64,000 nt of DNA from Atopobiaceae bacterium (GTDB lineage: Bacteria > Actinomycetota > Coriobacteriia > Coriobacteriales > Atopobiaceae), in contig JAFWKQ010000021.1 of the NCBI GenBank assembly GCA_017545665.1, positions 1 to 64,000 of the forward strand, in the 5' to 3' direction. Positions 3,027-37,327 of this stretch are shown here, in pieces. The notes under the pieces are model-generated. The model was not told the origin of the DNA and did no database searches. It worked only from the letters and a program-made list of their open reading frames with translations. Within the stretch, counting starts at the first letter, position 1. Each line of letters starts with the position of its first letter. The position numbers and the translations under genes were made by a program.

Positions 3027-3416
3027 ATGCGCTTCGTACGACGACTCAAGGTGCTCGAGCTTATGGTGGAAAGCTCGAACTTCGACCTCATGGGTGCGGG
3101 GACGGAAATAGACGGCTACTGCCTGCGGAACGACATACTGCCCCGCACAAAGAACCTCATTAACCTGACTGTAGAGGAACTGGTCTGCAATATTCTGAGT
3201 CCCGTGCTTGACGACGTGCCCATGTTGATCACGATCGAGTATTCCGAGAGCGATGGCCATGTGGACGTTGTCGCATCGTATGGCGGCAAGAGGTTCGATC
3301 CGGCGGGAGATGAAGATGACTTTTCGTATCGGGTGCTTTGCAGCACCGTCAAGGACCTTTCCTATGGCTATGACCCGAAGGCGGAGAGGGCGAACACCAT
3401 ACGCGTTCTGATCTAA
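3027..3416 (+). pseudogene. GHKL/anti-sigma-type ATPase-like domain fragment
   Basis: 129 residues with LTVEELVCNIL, then DVVASYGGKRFDP and ANTIRVLI at the end. This layout (N-box-like helix, GG.RFDP loop, closing strand) recurs in this window as the N terminus of the symporters at 31937-33583 and 54152-55744 and at the C terminus of the MATE protein at 50747-52468. There is no ribosome site in front of the ATG, and no transporter part is attached, so I read it as the end of a larger deleted transporter gene. It could still be expressed as a free domain. Confidence 0.45.
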
Positions 3417-3522
3417 CATCGCTGGAGCCGGTGATGCATGACATGCGGAATCCATGCCATGGCCACAGGAAGTGCAACAATGGGTGCGAGAACCGCTGCT
3501 TACGTGCCCAGAGGGAGTCGTT

Positions 3523-3848
3523 ATGAGAAGAGCAATCACATTGCTCGTCGTTGTCGTGATGCTCTCGTTTGGCCTGTGTGGCCTTGTGGCGTGTGGAGGA
3601 CAGCTGTCTTCGAGCGACGCGGACGGAAGCGCGAAGACGGCGAGTCCCGTAAAGGTCGCTTGCGAGAACGACGTTATGCCGGGGCGCTCTGCGGATGGGG
3701 CGGAACGACAGTGCCCATGTACGACGGCAAGAATTTCGCAAAGGCGCATGGCGACGCCATCTTGGTGACCTGCAACTATCGTCTTGGCCTCATGGCATGG
3801 GCGGACCTCAAGGCAATCTCGGGCGAGGATTGGATGAAGCTCGACTGA
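3523..3848 (+). pseudogene. Carboxylesterase-type lipoprotein, broken
   Basis: The ATG at 3523 begins a clear lipoprotein signal peptide: MRRAITLL, a hydrophobic core, and lipobox LVAC. The frame goes astray after about 50 residues. A second frame then reads GGTTVPMYDGKNFAKAHGD and VTCNYRLGLMAWADLK, which matches the conserved block of carboxylesterases just before the catalytic serine elbow (NYRLG). The elbow itself and the rest, about 400 residues, are missing. At least one frameshift and one large deletion are present. Confidence 0.5.
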
Positions 3849-3867
3849 CGCCAATACCAGAGACACT

Positions 3868-4038
3868 ATGGTCATCGACAAGCACAAATGGGGATGCGTC
3901 CTCGATCCCTCCAAGACGGCACGTACGCTGCTCGCGCGAGCCTACGGAGACAAGCCATACCACGAGTGGCAGGACCTTTTTGGCAGCCATGCCGAAAGAA
4001 CATTGGGAAGAATTTTCCAAAATATGTGGGATATCTAA
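3868..4038 (+). CDS. Small unknown protein before the RiPP locus
   Basis: 56 residues from ATG 3868 to TAA 4036-4038, starting MVIDKHKWGCVLDPSKTAR and containing LARAYGDKPYHEWQDLFG. Composition and codon use look coding, but no family is recognised. The same frame is open for 10 codons upstream, so this may be the tail of a deleted gene. It ends 54 bases before the RiPP precursor and has no convincing ribosome site. Confidence 0.35.
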   Translation: MVIDKHKWGCVLDPSKTARTLLARAYGDKPYHEWQDLFGSHAERTLGRIFQNMWDI

Positions 4039-4092
4039 TATATTCGCGCGTATTATAAGCAACGTGGCAACCGTTAAGGGAAAGGAAATACC

Positions 4093-4302
4093 ATGGAGTT
4101 CAACGATTTGAGCAAAGAGCAGCAGGAGAAGGCGATGGCGTGCAAGACGCCAGAGGAAATCTTGGCGCTCGCCAAGGATGAGGGCTACGAGCTTTCCGAC
4201 GAGGAGCTGGAGAGCATCAACGGCGGCATGATGTGGGGCGATGTCTGCGTGGGCGTGGCATGCAAGGTGTGCCGTGGCTACAAGGGCTGCAAGTGCTACT
4301 AG
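4093..4302 (+). CDS. Nif11-leader Cys-rich RiPP precursor
   Basis: 69 residues. Residues 1-45 are a Nif11-type leader: the helix EEILALAKDEGYELSDEELE ends in SINGG, the double-glycine cleavage signal at 44-45. The 24-residue core after GG is rich in Cys (52, 57, 60, 66, 68) with Gly, Lys, Trp and Tyr. The ribosome site AAGGGAAAGGA lies upstream. It is 129 bases ahead of a radical SAM/SPASM maturase on the same strand. Nif11-leader peptides are known substrates of RiPP enzymes, and Cys-rich cores paired with SPASM enzymes are typical of sactipeptides or ranthipeptides. Thioether cross-links from the core cysteines are therefore the likely modification, which is an inference. Leader-core boundary and product class are unproven. 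Confidence 0.85.
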   Translation: MEFNDLSKEQQEKAMACKTPEEILALAKDEGYELSDEELESINGGMMWGDVCVGVACKVCRGYKGCKCY

Positions 4303-4395
4303 GGCGCGCTATTTGAGGCTGGGCCTTGCGGACGCAGCCGTTGCGGACTCGGCGTCACGAGCGCAGGTAGCACGAGACGTAAATGAGTTGTTCGA

Positions 4396-4413
4396 GCAGG
4401 GGCAAGCCCCTGC
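4396..4413 (+). promoter_or_regulatory. GC-rich hairpin between precursor and maturase
   Basis: GCAGGGG (4396-4402), loop CAAG, CCCCTGC (4407-4413). There is no U-run, and a ribosome site AAGGAGG follows six bases later. In RiPP operons such stem-loops act as partial terminators or processing sites so that much more precursor than enzyme is made; that role here is an inference. Confidence 0.5.
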
Positions 4414-4431
4414 TCCCATAAGGAGGAAGAC

Positions 4432-5781
4432 GTGGAAGAACGGCGAACCGCGGGCGATGCAGGCTGGCATGCCTCGCGCTATAACCTGATGGCAAGGGTT
4501 CCGGGTACCAAGAACGTTGCCATCGCCAACCTGTTCAAGGGCAATTGTGCGGAGTACACACCGATCGAGATGTTCCTGCTGTCGGTGATAGAGGAGCTTG
4601 ATGAGGGCCATCCCATAATTGAGCGCTTCGCGCGGCGGGGCGTTATCTGCAAATTTGACGAGCGGGCCGCGCTCGAGTCAATGGGCCGAGCCGCCTGTGC
4701 GTACGGTGGGTCCGTGGCGCTCACCATTTGCCCGACCATGGGCTGCAACTTTGACTGTCCGTACTGTTTCGAGAACCACAGGCGGGGGAAGATGTCGCAA
4801 GAGGTGCAGGACGATGTCGTGGCGCTCGCCGAGCGTATGATGGACGCCTCCTCATCCAAGAATCTCTCCGTAAGCTGGTTTGGGGGTGAACCGCTCCTGG
4901 CCCCCGATGTCATTGAGTCGCTTTCGCAACGGCTGATGGCGCTCGTGGAGCGGCGGGGCGGTGAATACTCGGCCGGCATCATTACCAATGGGTACCTCCT
5001 GACACAGGAGATAGCGGATATGCTCGCCCGCTGCAAGGTCGATTCGGCGCAGATCACCATAGACGGTTTGGGTGCGACACATGATGCCACGCGTTACCTG
5101 CGAGGCGGTGGACCGACCTTCGAGCGCATAACAGCCAACCTGCGCGACGTGAAGATTCCCTTCAAGGTGAGCGTTCGCCACAACGTACACGAAAGCAACT
5201 TATCCCAGATTGACGACTTGGAAGCGTTCGTTGAGGAATTGGCAAGGATTTCGGGCAACGACCTCGAGTACTACACCGCCGTCGTGTATGGCAGCGAGGT
5301 TGCGGACGAGCGTGGAGGCCAAGTGGGACTGCTGTGCGGCTCGGATGCCAGTAGCGTGGGAGTCAGGCAGGAGGCCAACCGATTTGAGGCTGGCCATGGT
5401 TACTACTGTGGCGCGAACATGCTGTGGAGCGTTGGCGTTGACGATTGCGGCAACCTGCAGAAGTGCTGGGAGTCTGTTGACAAGCCGCAGTTCTCGTTTG
5501 GCACGGCGCATGACTGGGACCCCAACGATCCGCTGGCAACGGCAAGCAATCTGGACAACCTCACCATGTACCTCAACCTGGCATGTCCCTTGCCCGACGA
5601 GGAATGTCGCGAATGCGTTTGGCTGCCCATGTGCGTGGGTGGGTGTCCCCACAAGCGCCTGACGACGGGCCGCGGATGCGTGGCGTTCAAGGACGAGCCT
5701 GAGCGCTATGTGCTTGCGCTGCACGATCGCATTGGTAAAGGCAGGCGTCATGGCGAAACGAAGGATGAGTCAAAGTCATAG
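4432..5781 (+). CDS. Radical SAM/SPASM peptide maturase
   Basis: 449 residues with a GTG start five bases after AAGGAGG. The radical SAM cluster motif CX3CX2C is C105-NFD-C109-PY-C112, and the SAM-binding GGEP lies at 151-154. The C-terminal SPASM region has Cys at 326, 339, 345, 385, 392, 395, 401, 405 and 416, including CRECVWLPMCVGGC, enough for auxiliary Fe-S clusters. Residues 1-90 probably hold the peptide-recognition part. Enzymes of this build install thioether or C-C links in Cys-rich peptides (sactipeptide/ranthipeptide maturases such as the SCIFF and PapB types). The adjacent Nif11-leader precursor is the obvious substrate. No protease or exporter follows: an IS256 remnant begins within 80 bases, so the operon may have lost its end. 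Confidence 0.9.
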   Translation: MEERRTAGDAGWHASRYNLMARVPGTKNVAIANLFKGNCAEYTPIEMFLLSVIEELDEGHPIIERFARRGVICKFDERAALESMGRAACAYGGSVALTICPTMGCNFDCPYCFENHRRGKMSQEVQDDVVALAERMMDASSSKNLSVSWFGGEPLLAPDVIESLSQRLMALVERRGGEYSAGIITNGYLLTQEIADMLARCKVDSAQITIDGLGATHDATRYLRGGGPTFERITANLRDVKIPFKVSVRHNVHESNLSQIDDLEAFVEELARISGNDLEYYTAVVYGSEVADERGGQVGLLCGSDASSVGVRQEANRFEAGHGYYCGANMLWSVGVDDCGNLQKCWESVDKPQFSFGTAHDWDPNDPLATASNLDNLTMYLNLACPLPDEECRECVWLPMCVGGCPHKRLTTGRGCVAFKDEPERYVLALHDRIGKGRRHGETKDESKS

Positions 5782-5821
5782 CTTTGCTTCGGGCTAGAAT
5801 TGCGCACGCTCCGACGTTCCC

Positions 5822-6322
5822 TTGTCGCGTAGAGGAGGGTCTTGCTGTGCTCGTCTGTCTCAAGGCGCCCTCCGCGCACATGTGGACTTCTACCGGAATG
5901 TCCTGGCCAAGGTGCCGAAGAGACGAAGGAGGCAGGTCGCCGCCCAGCTCAAGGCCATACACGCGCAGGAGTCCATGGAGTCGTGCGCGCGCAAGGCGGC
6001 CGAGGTCGTCGAGTCGCTCAGGACGTCCAACCTCGCCGACGCGGCGAGAATCGTGGAGGAGGGCTTCATGGAGACGCTGACGCATGCCAGGTTCCCGATG
6101 GAGCACTGGAGGCGAATCAGGACGAACAACGGCATCGAGCGCCTCAACCGCGAGATCAAGCGCAGGACCAAGGTCGTCGCAAGCTTCCCCGACGGAAAGT
6201 CGGCGATGATGCTCGCCGCGGCCAGGTGCAAGTACGTCGCAGGAGGCAACTGGGGATCGAGGAGGTACCTCGACCTGACGCTCCTCCAGGGCTGGGACGA
6301 GAGGAGGGACATGGGATTCTAG
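5822..6322 (+). mobile_element. IS256-family transposase, 3' fragment
   Basis: About 155 residues homologous to the C-terminal half of mutator-type (IS256) transposases: HVDFYRNVLAKVPKR, AIHAQE, RFPMEHWRRIRTNNGIER, LNREIKRRTKVVASFPDG and WGSRRYLDL. The catalytic Glu near the C-terminal part may be present, but the N-terminal half with the two catalytic Asp residues is missing, and no terminal inverted repeats were found. It lies directly downstream of the RiPP maturase and probably marks a past insertion or deletion there. Confidence 0.85.
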
Positions 6323-6456
6323 CTCCGATTTGATAAATGATACCGTCACGAAGAGCTATGAAGATATTTGCAAAAGATACTTGACGGAACCTTTTGCTCA
6401 GCATGTTGTCTCCCATAACCAGTAACGAATGCACACATTATAAGCGTGCATCCAGC

Positions 6457-6510
6457 GTGTCGCAGGGACGGAGGCGTTGTGTCACGGAGACGGGGGCGTT
6501 GACACACATC
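6457..6510. repeat. GTGTCAC-GGGACGGGGG intergenic repeat
   Basis: Contains GTGTCGCAGGGACGG and GTGTCACGGAGACGGGGGCG followed by GTTGACACAC. This short family recurs between genes at about 14986-15056, 21320-21385, 24479-24530, 28636-28667, 30241-30276 and 38139-38180. Confidence 0.6.
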
Positions 6511-6530
6511 CGTCAGCTTTTGCGTCATGT

Positions 6531-6756
6531 TGGCGCCTCGTGTGCGGGCGCAAAAAAACAAGGTGCGCACGAGCCGCCAGAATATTCACGTCGATTCCTG
6601 CCCAACTGGCCTTTTGCGACGACTTTGCGAAATTCCTGGCGGCTCGTGTACAACGGCGAAGCTCCAATTGTACACGAGCCGCCAGAGTCGTCGGACCGAC
6701 CTCTCGCGATCTGGGGTTTTGTGGAAGACAATGCAAAATCCTGGCGGTTCGTGTGC
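6531..6756. repeat. 105-bp-periodic inverted-repeat array, copy 1
   Basis: Five 15-base arms alternate in direction: forward arms TGGCGGCTCGTGTAC-like at 6531, 6637 and 6742, and reverse arms GTACACGAGCCGCCA-like at 6565 and 6670. Forward-to-forward spacing is 106 and 105, reverse-to-reverse 105. The spacers are also related (AACTGG..TTTTG and TTGCGAAATTCC). The same structure occurs at 8574-8798 and 19912-20136. No protein is convincingly encoded in 6323-6917. Confidence 0.85.
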
Positions 6757-6917
6757 GTGCTCCCCCAGCCGCTCCTTTGCTAGGCACCCTTTGTGAGGCA
6801 AGCTCGATGGCGCCACCATCGTTAACGAAGGAATTTATCCGTTATTCTCATTGTCGGACGGGTAGCCCACGGGAATTTCCTCGCGCAAAGGCGTGTCGCT
6901 TGTCGCGCACCCACCAG

Positions 6918-8457: not shown

Positions 8458-8573
8458 TGATGTATTTGTAAGAAGGAACTCTTGTTATAGTGCCAAACAC
8501 AAGAACACAATGCGCATATTCGGCTGCGCTCCCTCGGCAAAGAGCGCCTTCGGGCCGTTTCTCGTCGCTGTTT

Positions 8574-8798
8574 TGGCGGCTCATGTTCTAACGCAAAAAG
8601 CGAGGTTGTACACAAGCCGCCAAGATGTTTGCAATATTTTTTGCTCAACTGGGGTTTTATGGACAACTTGCGAAATTGTTGGCGGTTCGTGTACTTTTCC
8701 CGAAGCTCAGTTGTACACGAACCGCCAAAAACGCTCGTCCAGACTCTCGCCAACTGGGGTTTTGCGCGATTCGCGCCGAATCCTGGCGGCTCGTGGAC
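8574..8798. repeat. 105-bp-periodic inverted-repeat array, copy 2
   Basis: Forward arms TGGCGGTTCGTGTAC-like at 8574, 8680 and 8784; reverse arms GTACACGAACCGCCA-like at 8608 and 8713. Spacing is 106, 104 and 105. Between the units the spacer AACTGGGGTTTT is repeated at about 8646 and 8752. The stretch 8268-8573 upstream holds only the candidate leader region. Confidence 0.85.
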
Positions 8799-8821
8799 AA
8801 GCGCGCCTATCCGACGGTGCG

Positions 8822-34647: not shown

Positions 34648-35162
34648 ATGGCCAACGAAACGAACGAGCTTTTTACCAAAAGGCGGCGGACAAGCTCCGC
34701 AGCCCAGACGACCTAGACGAGTACGTACGCATAACCAACCCCAGCATATGGATTGTGCTCAGCGGATGTGCCGTCCTGCTAATTGGCCTCTTTGCGTGGG
34801 GCTTCTTTGGCACGGCCGAGACGCGCGTAGGCGCCATGGGAGCGTACGTAAGGGGCGAAGTATTCTGCTTCCTGCCGTCTGACAAAGTTTCCAGCATTCA
34901 CGAGGGAGACATTGCCAACGTAAGCGGGGAGCAGATGAAGGTGGCATCCATAAGCACCGTGCCCGTATCGTACGCCGAGGCACGGCAGCTCGTAGGCAGC
35001 GACTACCTGGCGAGCACGATCGTGGGAGGCGAATGGACCTACGTCGTGCGCTTTGCCAGTGACAACAAACCAAACCTCGCCGCAGACATCCCGCTCAGTA
35101 TAAACATCACAACCGAGCGCATCGCACCCATTAGTCTCGTTTTTGGGAACGCAAAACGATGA
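34648..35162 (+). pseudogene. NHLM-type secretion adaptor, frameshifted
   Basis: ATG 34648 starts MANETNELFTK. After four A (34678-34681) the frame fails; one extra A restores KAADKLRSPDDLDEYVRITNPSIW, then a membrane helix and a beta-barrel part of about 100 residues ending with INITTERIAPISLVFG. This matches the HlyD-like secretion proteins of NHLM/NHLP bacteriocin export operons but is shorter than usual (about 170 against 250 residues). Its stop overlaps the start of the exporter in ATGA, so the two were co-translated. Confidence 0.7.
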
Positions 35163-37327
35163 GCAGAGTAAAGAAAGTCCCCCAAATCATGCAGATGGAG
35201 GCACTCGAATGCGGTGCCGCCTGCCTGGCTATGGTTCTTGCCTATTACGGACGATGGGAGCCGCTCGAGAAGGTTCGCGAGCAGTGTGGCGCCTCACGCG
35301 ACGGCAGCAAGGCGGCAAACATCCTTAGGGCGGCACGCAGCTATGGGCTTTCCGCCGAGGGTGCCTCTGGCAACGCTCAGGCACTCCGTGCGGAAGCCAC
35401 CTTTCCCTGCATCATCTTTTGGAACTTCAATCACTTTGTCGTGCTCAATGGCTTTAGAGGACGCTACGCATACATAAACGACCCCGCGCGCGGCGAGATA
35501 CGGGTAAAGATGGAGCAGTTTGAGGAGAGCTTTACGGGCGTCGTTCTTCTATTTGAGAAGAACGAGGCCTTTGAGGAGGGTGGCCAAAAGCCAAACACGC
35601 TACGCTACGCCAAGGAGCGACTTAAGGGCATGGGCGCCCCCCTTGCCTTTGTTATGCTAACGGCTGCCATCACGTCGCTTACGGGAATCGTCAACACATC
35701 CATGGGCCAGGTGTTTATGGATCGCATCCTCACAGGCAATAATCCCGACTGGCTGACGCCAATGATAATTTGCATGCTCATCCTCGCTGCAATAACAGGA
35801 ATCGTTTCCATATTGAACGCATTGTATTTGGTACGCATCCGAGGCAAGATCGCAGTTGTCTCCTCCTCGCGCTTCATGCGTCATTTGCTGCACCTGCCCG
35901 TAGGCTTTTACTCGCAGCGCATGGTAGGCGACCTGCAGCAACGACAGTCCTCCAACGAGTGCATCGCCTTTTCGCTCATTGGGCAAGTGGCACCCGTTAT
36001 CGTTAACGTAATTATGCTCGTGCTGTACCTGGTCGTTATGCTGAGCTACAGCGTCCTCCTTACGGTGGTGGGAGTAACGAACGTCCTCATAAACATACTG
36101 TTGGCACGCTACATCTCCAAGCAGCGAGTGAACATCTCTCGTTCGGCTACCGCCAATGCTGGCAAGAAGTACGCCACTGGCGTAAGCGGCATCGAGATGA
36201 TCGATACCATAAAGTCGTCCGGTGCCGAAAATAGCTTTTTCGAGCGATGGGCGGGCTATCAGGCGCTCATGAACAAGGATCAGGTTCGCACCGAGCGACT
36301 GAACCAGTACTTGGGATCGCTGCCCGCAACCCTTACGTCGTTGGCAAACGTCGCGGTACTCGTGCTTGGCATTTGGCTCATCGTAAGGGGCGAGTTTACC
36401 CCTGGCATGCTGCTCGCGTTTACGGGCTTCCTCTCGTCATTTACGGCTCCAGTCAACCAGCTCACGGCCCTTGGACAAACGGTCCAGGAAATGGAGACGC
36501 AGATGGAGCGCATCGAGGACGTTATGAACTACGAATCCGACGTGCCTGAGGAATGCGGAGACCCCGCGGACATAAGCAGCCTCAAGCAGGAGTTTGGACG
36601 CGAAAAACTGCGTGGGCAGGTGGGTATGGAGGGAGTTTCCTTTGGCTACTCCCCGCTCGACCCCCCGCTCATACAGGACTTCAACCTCCACGTTAAGCCC
36701 GGTTCCTGGGTGGCGCTCGTGGGACCTTCCGGCTGCGGCAGATCCACCATAGCCAAGCTGATGAGCGGCCTCTATGAGCCATGGTCTGGCACGGTGAGTT
36801 TCGACAACAAGCCCATAGGGGAAACACCGCGCCCCATCCTCCGTGGTTCGGTGGCCGTCGTTGACCAGGACATCGTGGTGTTTGACGACACGGTATCCAA
36901 CAACGTAAGGCTGTGGGACGATTCCATCGAGGACTTTGAGGTTATGCTCGCCTGTCGCGACGCGAACATTCACGAAACCATTGCCAGTCGCGGCGATGGC
37001 TACTCATCCCGCATGTTGACAGGCGGGCGAAACTTTAGCGGCGGTCAGCTCCAGCGACTGGAAATAGCGCGCGTGCTTGCCAAGGACCCCACCGTGGTTG
37101 TATTGGACGAGGCCACGAGCGCGCTGGACGCAAAGACCGAGGCCTCGGTTATAAAGCGCATTCGAGAGCGTGACATTACCTGCATCGTGGTAGCGCATCG
37201 CCTGTCCACCATTCGCGACTGCGACGAGATAATTGTGTTGGACGAGGGCAAGGTGGTAGAGCGCGGGACGCACTCCCAGCTACTCGCCATCGACGGATCA
37301 TATGCGGAGTTGGTGCGCAATGGATAG
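35159..37327 (+). CDS. NHLP-family bacteriocin exporter, peptidase/permease/ATPase
   Basis: 722 residues, the family length. Order: C39 peptidase at 1-140 (ALECGAACLAMVLAYYG with catalytic Cys, NHFVVL with His), six-helix permease at about 160-450, ABC ATPase at 480-722 (FSGGQLQRLEIARVL signature, VVVLDEATSALD Walker B, VAHRLSTI). The Walker A reads GPSGCGRST, with Arg in place of the essential Lys. It would cut double-glycine leaders such as Nif11-type ones and export the core. It is preceded by the adaptor and followed by the second subunit (ATG overlaps its end). Confidence 0.92.
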   Translation: MSRVKKVPQIMQMEALECGAACLAMVLAYYGRWEPLEKVREQCGASRDGSKAANILRAARSYGLSAEGASGNAQALRAEATFPCIIFWNFNHFVVLNGFRGRYAYINDPARGEIRVKMEQFEESFTGVVLLFEKNEAFEEGGQKPNTLRYAKERLKGMGAPLAFVMLTAAITSLTGIVNTSMGQVFMDRILTGNNPDWLTPMIICMLILAAITGIVSILNALYLVRIRGKIAVVSSSRFMRHLLHLPVGFYSQRMVGDLQQRQSSNECIAFSLIGQVAPVIVNVIMLVLYLVVMLSYSVLLTVVGVTNVLINILLARYISKQRVNISRSATANAGKKYATGVSGIEMIDTIKSSGAENSFFERWAGYQALMNKDQVRTERLNQYLGSLPATLTSLANVAVLVLGIWLIVRGEFTPGMLLAFTGFLSSFTAPVNQLTALGQTVQEMETQMERIEDVMNYESDVPEECGDPADISSLKQEFGREKLRGQVGMEGVSFGYSPLDPPLIQDFNLHVKPGSWVALVGPSGCGRSTIAKLMSGLYEPWSGTVSFDNKPIGETPRPILRGSVAVVDQDIVVFDDTVSNNVRLWDDSIEDFEVMLACRDANIHETIASRGDGYSSRMLTGGRNFSGGQLQRLEIARVLAKDPTVVVLDEATSALDAKTEASVIKRIRERDITCIVVAHRLSTIRDCDEIIVLDEGKVVERGTHSQLLAIDGSYAELVRNG

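Follow-up and report, generated by a model that had tools for sequence, protein, structure and literature searches.

Besides thioether bridges, the SPASM enzymes related to the maturase described here make C-C cyclophanes, cyclopropanes and epimers, or splice their substrates. Among the described systems, CteB and PapB are the precedents for thioether-forming maturases, and PlpX is associated with leaders of the Nif11 or nitrile-hydratase type (PMC11002830). Haft et al. (PMC2887384) connected NHLM exporters with the NHLP and Nif11 leader types. MppC, an abba-type enzyme, transfers a geranyl group to a Trp in a lanthipeptide with a Nif11 leader, and requires that leader to do so (PMC12715784). 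Applying standard rules, the Hungate1000 survey recorded no ranthipeptides in rumen Actinomycetota (PMC13289728).

The locus analysed here lies in a stretch of 64,000 nucleotides from an Atopobiaceae bacterium, the whole of which we refer to as the window. It brings together a Nif11-leader precursor and a maturase composed of an RRE, a radical SAM domain and a SPASM domain, an assignment supported by domains, by motifs and by the pairing of the two genes. The first-pass annotation had read a 69-residue precursor, with a Nif11-like leader ending in GG and a 24-residue core with five Cys, followed by an enzyme with C105-X3-C109-X2-C112, GGEP and nine C-terminal Cys; all of these features are borne out in the two open reading frames (Table 1). 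The precursor matches PF07862 (Nif11) with an E-value of 7.7e-8 and 32.9 bits, above the cut-off of 23.8, and scores 32.2 bits against TIGR03798, which at 0.1 bit short of the cut-off of 32.3 is below threshold. The GG of the leader occupies residues 44-45, the core following directly. The two genes are 129 bases apart, a plausible ribosome-binding site precedes each, and the 10-bp hairpin between them is perfect and situated just 5' of the maturase ribosome-binding site; locus L009 keeps the stem with a different loop. An Rfam scan of window positions 3400-6900 returned no known RNA and no match for the hairpin, which may possibly act as a stoichiometry or stability element. Relatives of the precursor were absent from plasmids and from viral contigs, both of which were searched.

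Table 1. Features of the precursor-maturase locus and of the export genes in the window.
Feature	Coordinates	Strand	Basis or remark
RiPP precursor gene, 69 aa	4093..4302	+	PF07862 match; same core at six further places
Nif11-type leader, residues 1-45, end NGG	4093..4227	+	Nif11 model match residues 9-39; GG invariant
Core peptide MMWGDVCVGVACKVCRGYKGCKCY, residues 46-69	4228..4299	+	conserved, low pN
10-bp hairpin GAGCAGGGGC-AA-GCCCCTGCTC between the two genes, no T-run	4394..4415	+	
RRE + radical SAM + SPASM peptide maturase, 449 aa, GTG start, AGGAGG upstream	4432..5781	+	
N-terminal region, residues 1-90, RRE-like order (3 strands then 3 helices)	4432..4701	+	model secondary structure
Radical SAM cluster motif C105-x3-C109-x2-C112	4744..4767	+	invariant in 54 sequences
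Seven-Cys SPASM: C326-x13-G340-x4-C345 ... C392-x2-C395-x5-C401-x3-C405 ... C416	5407..5679	+	
HlyD-like export protein, N-terminus uncertain, trans-acting candidate	34755..35162	+	like cluster-5 proteins beside exporters in related loci
NHLM peptidase C39/ABC exporter	35159..37327	+	TIGR03796 917.8 bits, cut-off 853.3; C39 domain
Second NHLM exporter subunit, fragment, 161 aa	37493..37978	+	TIGR03797 E 1e-18, profile positions 31-163 of 686

The radical SAM domain of the maturase is recognised by PF04055 (E 3.3e-18), GGEP is found at residues 151-154 and the nine Cys run from C326 onward. Across 54 homologues there is no variation at C105, C109, C112, C326, C345, C392, C395, C401 and C416, and hardly any at C405. 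The enzyme fits the SPASM pattern C-x9-15-G-x4-C plus C-x2-C-x5-C-x3-C, and its homologue at L028 scores 44.5 bits against TIGR04085, above the cut-off of 27. The best NCBIfam match is TIGR04463 (209.8 of 525 bits), followed by Clo7bot (TIGR04334; 182.7 of 600) and CefB (145.5 of 600); PapB (NF047865; 108 of 340), the nif11-like peptide maturase family TIGR04064 (66.1 of 518.7) and SCIFF (TIGR03974; 62 of 425) score lower, and the maturase passes no NCBIfam equivalog cut-off. Scores so far under the equivalog cut-offs set the family apart from TIGR04463 and Clo7bot, and by this measure the maturase belongs to a separate, new family of the Cys-rich-peptide maturase kind. When five other members of the family were scanned, TIGR04463 was again the top NCBIfam model for each; with the window enzyme included, the scores span about 181-219 bits. 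Lying outside any NCBIfam equivalog, the family would escape genome-mining rules or be misnamed by them.

The predicted structure of the maturase (pLDDT 89.0, pTM 0.84) places the RRE-like part ahead of the SAM barrel. The nearest solved fold is that of CteB (5wgg/5why; TM 0.60, E 2.6e-15), which is also the top profile match (E 2e-19), in an alignment that begins at profile position 46 and within residues 1-90. NCBIfam, fold and profile matches alike give peptide maturases as the closest relatives, and not a clade with non-peptide substrates.

The core has its Cys at C52, C57, C60, C66 and C68, that is, C-x4-C-x2-C-x5-C-x-C. The pattern MMWGDVCVGVAC[KQ]VCRGYKGCK[CV]Y recurs at seven places in rumen Coriobacteriia, a count that includes loci from genome searches besides the contig scan: the window, the near-identical L009, L019, L028, L029, L141 and L207. 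A maturase adjoins the core at six of these, 3' of the precursor in the window, L009 and L019 and 5' of it in L028, L029 and L141, and the precursor is thus conserved beside the enzyme in relatives. At L207, from a different family of the same order, a lone precursor has no maturase on its 5.3-kb contig; the genome holds three maturases at other positions. A shortened relative of the core, KAWDLSCSVCTGYRGCKVY, is present at L013 and L208. A degenerate form of the core pattern was also run on 397 genomes of the order, where it gave mostly chance hits, a reversed control being about as frequent, and recovered the orphan core in G337 and the L013-type core in G327.

Eight aligned precursors have W48, C57, C60, G62, Y63, G65, C66, K67 and Y69 in common. 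C68 is replaced by Val in four of the eight and C52 is lost in one, while C57, C60 and C66 are universal. The suggestion that a core with CxxxxCxxC and CxC spacing might represent a new type needs correcting: the spacing belongs to a conserved product and does not by itself make a new chemical type, and C68 is dispensable. Between six copies, mean pN is 0.036 and pS 0.41 in the core, compared with 0.148 and 0.42 in the leader. Because pN is lower in the core than in the leader at equal pS, the core itself is, by this comparison, under purifying selection, its changes being almost only synonymous while the leader diverges; taken singly, the pairwise test is significant for the window versus L028 (p 0.003) and not for other pairs. 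The equality of pS rules out recent copying of the core between loci.

On the enzyme tree, the carriers of this core stand in three places (the window with L009; L019; L028 with L029), and the starred branches cannot be reconciled with fewer than two changes. The split indicates that divergent enzymes serve one peptide, and a core carried by three maturase lineages is not one recent copy. That the core stays near-identical against diverging leaders and enzymes suggests a target or signal that is fixed in the gut of ruminants.

We regard it as probable that the two genes form a RiPP operon, its leader bound by the RRE, its core bridged by thioethers, and its product cleaved at GG and exported through NHLM proteins in trans. 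The 69-aa precursor would be made with its Nif11 leader, which may bind the N-terminal RRE of the maturase. A residue of the 24-aa core would lose a hydrogen to the radical SAM site, and the auxiliary clusters of the SPASM domain would help to bond a Cys sulfur to the carbon so activated, at a cost of 2 Da per bridge. Likely donors would be the universal C57, C60 and C66, with C52 and C68 as optional ones. Cleavage behind GG would remove the leader, and an NHLM C39-peptidase ABC exporter, for example that of the window, would export the cationic product in trans for secretion as a bacteriocin or signal; such a role for the core would fit its charge, about +2.5 at pH 7 unmodified. The calculated monoisotopic mass of the unmodified core, its thiols free, is 2658.15. 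What can be read from the DNA itself is the pairing of precursor and maturase, the domains, the cluster motifs, the purifying selection on the core and the presence of an exporter. Thioether bridging of the core is likely by analogy, and it is the likeliest chemistry because of the CteB and PapB precedents (PMC11002830). The range of other products made by related SPASM enzymes counts against it. Bonded to an alpha carbon, the Cys sulfur would make the product a sactipeptide, and bonded to a non-alpha carbon a ranthipeptide. D50 is the sole acidic residue in the core, and PapB-type Cys-Asp bonds could consequently explain at most one bridge; most acceptors would be non-acidic, as with the Thr of CteB.

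The first-pass annotation had described a minimal operon with neither protease nor exporter. This holds for the operon itself. At a distance of 29 kb downstream, however, the same window has an NHLM peptidase/exporter, a candidate from its sequence for removing the leader and exporting the product in trans. The HlyD-like protein encoded beside it has no match in an NCBIfam scan. Against the reading proposed above stands the truncation of the second exporter subunit in the window. A GPKGTVPF-like stretch follows the break in that subunit and is also found near 31.7 kb of the window. The genome as a whole encodes five C39 proteins. Directly 3' of the maturase, the C-terminal remnant of an IS256/Mutator-type transposase occupies window positions 5822-6322; decay of the operon by this neighbour is ruled out, both reading frames being intact and their motifs complete. 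Similar short stretches at 6560-6760 and 8500-8800 (of the cgtgtacaa / ctggcggctcgtg type) flank an MFS transporter gene and look like a dispersed intergenic repeat.

Beyond the window, a scan of genome contigs gave 76 loci with relatives of the maturase, mostly from ruminant-gut Coriobacteriia and with some from Clostridia and Chloroflexota. Nif11 precursors are present in 31 of the 33 maturase genomes among 140 genomes of the family, as against 15 of the 107 others. The window's own genome has two maturases of this family and nine Nif11 matches above the curated cut-off (thirteen at E 0.01), spread over many contigs. For about half of the maturases in the family no adjacent precursor could be recognised, which weakens the notion of one enzyme dedicated to one peptide; non-Nif11 Cys-rich precursors were sought beside maturases without a Nif11 gene, and none was convincing. 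Conversely, L207 and L144 hold orphan precursors. That of L144 (5345-5755, G132) has a similar motif, DWCPDVCRGYKLCGVVVH, is situated near an adenylate kinase gene and has no maturase within its 10-kb stretch. The maturases may act in trans on scattered precursors. Rather than standing by itself, the operon is one piece of a system whose parts are dispersed; its exporters lie in trans, and a second modifying enzyme, here called c2, probably belongs to it.

Two further groups of Nif11-type genes were observed. At L060, L061, L063 and L066, about +1400, a conserved convergent precursor with a core of YWGGGCNCDWYHF type adjoins a separate clade of maturases, with c2 on the opposite side, and constitutes a second stable peptide type. 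Elsewhere in the genus and in related genera, Nif11-type leaders are fused to zinc-ribbon-like tails, CxxC...CxxC (L093, L098, L116, L119, L123, L125, L132 and L136).

The c2 family comprises proteins of about 330 aa that recur beside maturases at 25 of the 76 loci, in 18 cases within 500 bp (members include L045:3894-5918, L077:4707-5693, L082:4776-5777, G000:C68:5803-6798 and G000:C114:45587-46591). Thirty-four c2 copies were seen at maturase loci, with about 0.4 expected at own-genome density. In the same 140 genomes c2 is found in 37, made up of 32 of the 33 with a maturase and 5 of the 107 others. Searches of Pfam, NCBIfam and PDB gave no meaningful sequence match for c2. In Foldseek its model (pLDDT 92.8) is nevertheless closest to soluble aromatic prenyltransferases, namely EpzP (E 1.3e-5), AnaPT, CloQ, DMATS1 and IptA, with modest TM-scores of 0.42-0.53; the conserved residues E52, R175, Q228, K311, K323 and Y325 fall on predicted strands.

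It is tempting to speculate that the system works in two dispersed steps, in which a radical SAM crosslink is joined by prenylation of W48 in trans by c2 to give a crosslinked, lipidated RiPP. We hold this to be possible rather than probable, and it extends the thioether reading rather than opposing it. In its favour are the resemblance of the c2 model to aromatic prenyltransferases and the genomes and loci that c2 shares with the maturase. Moreover, several genomes share operons in which a Nif11 precursor is accompanied by a single c2 gene or by two in tandem, with no radical SAM gene nearby (L224, L225, L226, L227 and L228, also L232 and L233). The cores of these operons are of the forms DS[WF]WCPTATSCPNYE[VI]MR and [ST]WY[ND]CMNETW, with DSWWCPTATSCPNYEVMR and SWYNCMNETW as Trp-bearing examples. 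Of 102 distinct Nif11 cores, 74 have a Trp among their first eight residues. In the window's genome c2 is present twice, each gene retaining the full set of 20 conserved residues that were checked and one of them adjoining an intact NHLM exporter pair, and MppC offers a precedent (PMC12715784). Set against this are the modest TM-scores and the absence of sequence matches to prenyltransferases. The operon of the window, furthermore, has no adjoining c2, the nearest MMWG-type case being L028, where c2 is 2 kb away; cores that have no known connection with c2 often contain Trp as well, and the co-occurrence may partly stem from clade structure. From the model and by analogy, c2 may fairly, if tentatively, be guessed to prenylate Trp residues of the cores, perhaps including W48 of the window core.

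The same invariant W48, together with the equally invariant Y63, would suit a maturase whose product is a C-C cyclophane, formed for instance at W48-G-D50 or Y63, and not a thioether, leaving the Cys to form disulfides. The cyclophane maturases YhhB, AmcB and GrrM are indeed among the weaker NCBIfam matches, but the Cys-rich-peptide families (TIGR04463, Clo7bot and PapB) score far higher. The Trp, moreover, is conserved in cores both with and without this maturase, and W48-x-x, although mostly W-G-D, is W-D-L in L013. We therefore consider a cyclophane unlikely. More doubtful still is a core that binds metal through CxxC...C and bears no crosslinks, the radical SAM enzyme modifying something else. 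Other Nif11-type proteins of the genus, with their zinc-ribbon-like tails, lend this idea some weight; however, the core is only 24 aa long, its universal Cys are just three, and it accompanies the maturase in both gene orders. A spliceotide or epimerised peptide is highly improbable: PlpX-type splicing enzymes and radical SAM epimerases likewise accept substrates with Nif11 leaders, but the core has GYKG and KCY in place of the Xaa-Tyr-Gly motif, which rules out a spliceotide, and the 25 best NCBIfam matches of the maturase include no PlpX-type or epimerase family. A LanM/LanC lanthipeptide is ruled out because PF05147 finds no LanC-like protein in the whole genome.

A thioether-bridged RiPP remains the preferred reading of the locus, and what is new here, as judged from sequence comparison, is the maturase family with its conserved Cys-rich Nif11 peptide. 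The most interesting lead, a lipidated, crosslinked RiPP assembled from scattered parts, lies outside positions 4093-5781. If c2 were a peptide prenyltransferase, it would open an unannotated enzyme family for leader-guided peptide lipidation and offer an example in which scattered precursors are modified in trans by two enzymes. To our knowledge, no described RiPP class combines a thioether crosslink with prenylation. As a tentative picture, scattered Nif11 peptides of rumen Coriobacteriia, and of some rumen Clostridia, might be crosslinked by the new radical SAM/SPASM family and prenylated on Trp by c2, yielding lipidated thioether RiPPs.

Compared with the known systems, the maturase shares its domain order with TIGR04463 (rSAM_vs_C_rich) and TIGR04334 (Clo7bot) but is far below both equivalog cut-offs. 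With CteB/SCIFF (TIGR03974) it has in common the RRE, the SAM barrel, the two-cluster SPASM and a Cys-rich substrate; this substrate differs from those of SCIFF and PapB (NF047865) in having a Nif11 leader instead of a SCIFF sequence, and one Asp only. A Nif11-leader substrate and a SPASM enzyme are also the combination of TIGR04064, although the score against that model indicates another family. For c2, the model is MppC/MppE, in which an abba-type prenyltransferase acts on Trp of a Nif11-leader substrate (PMC12715784); that system uses a lanthionine synthetase and not a radical SAM enzyme, and sequence comparison detects no similarity between c2 and known prenyltransferases. In its overall economy the system resembles the prochlorosins and N11P peptides (ProcM; PMC2887384), where many Nif11 precursors are served by few modifying enzymes and NHLM-type exporters. 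In place of LanM and a LanC-like enzyme, the window's genome has radical SAM enzymes and perhaps c2, and whereas prochlorosin cores are hypervariable, the core of the window is strongly conserved.
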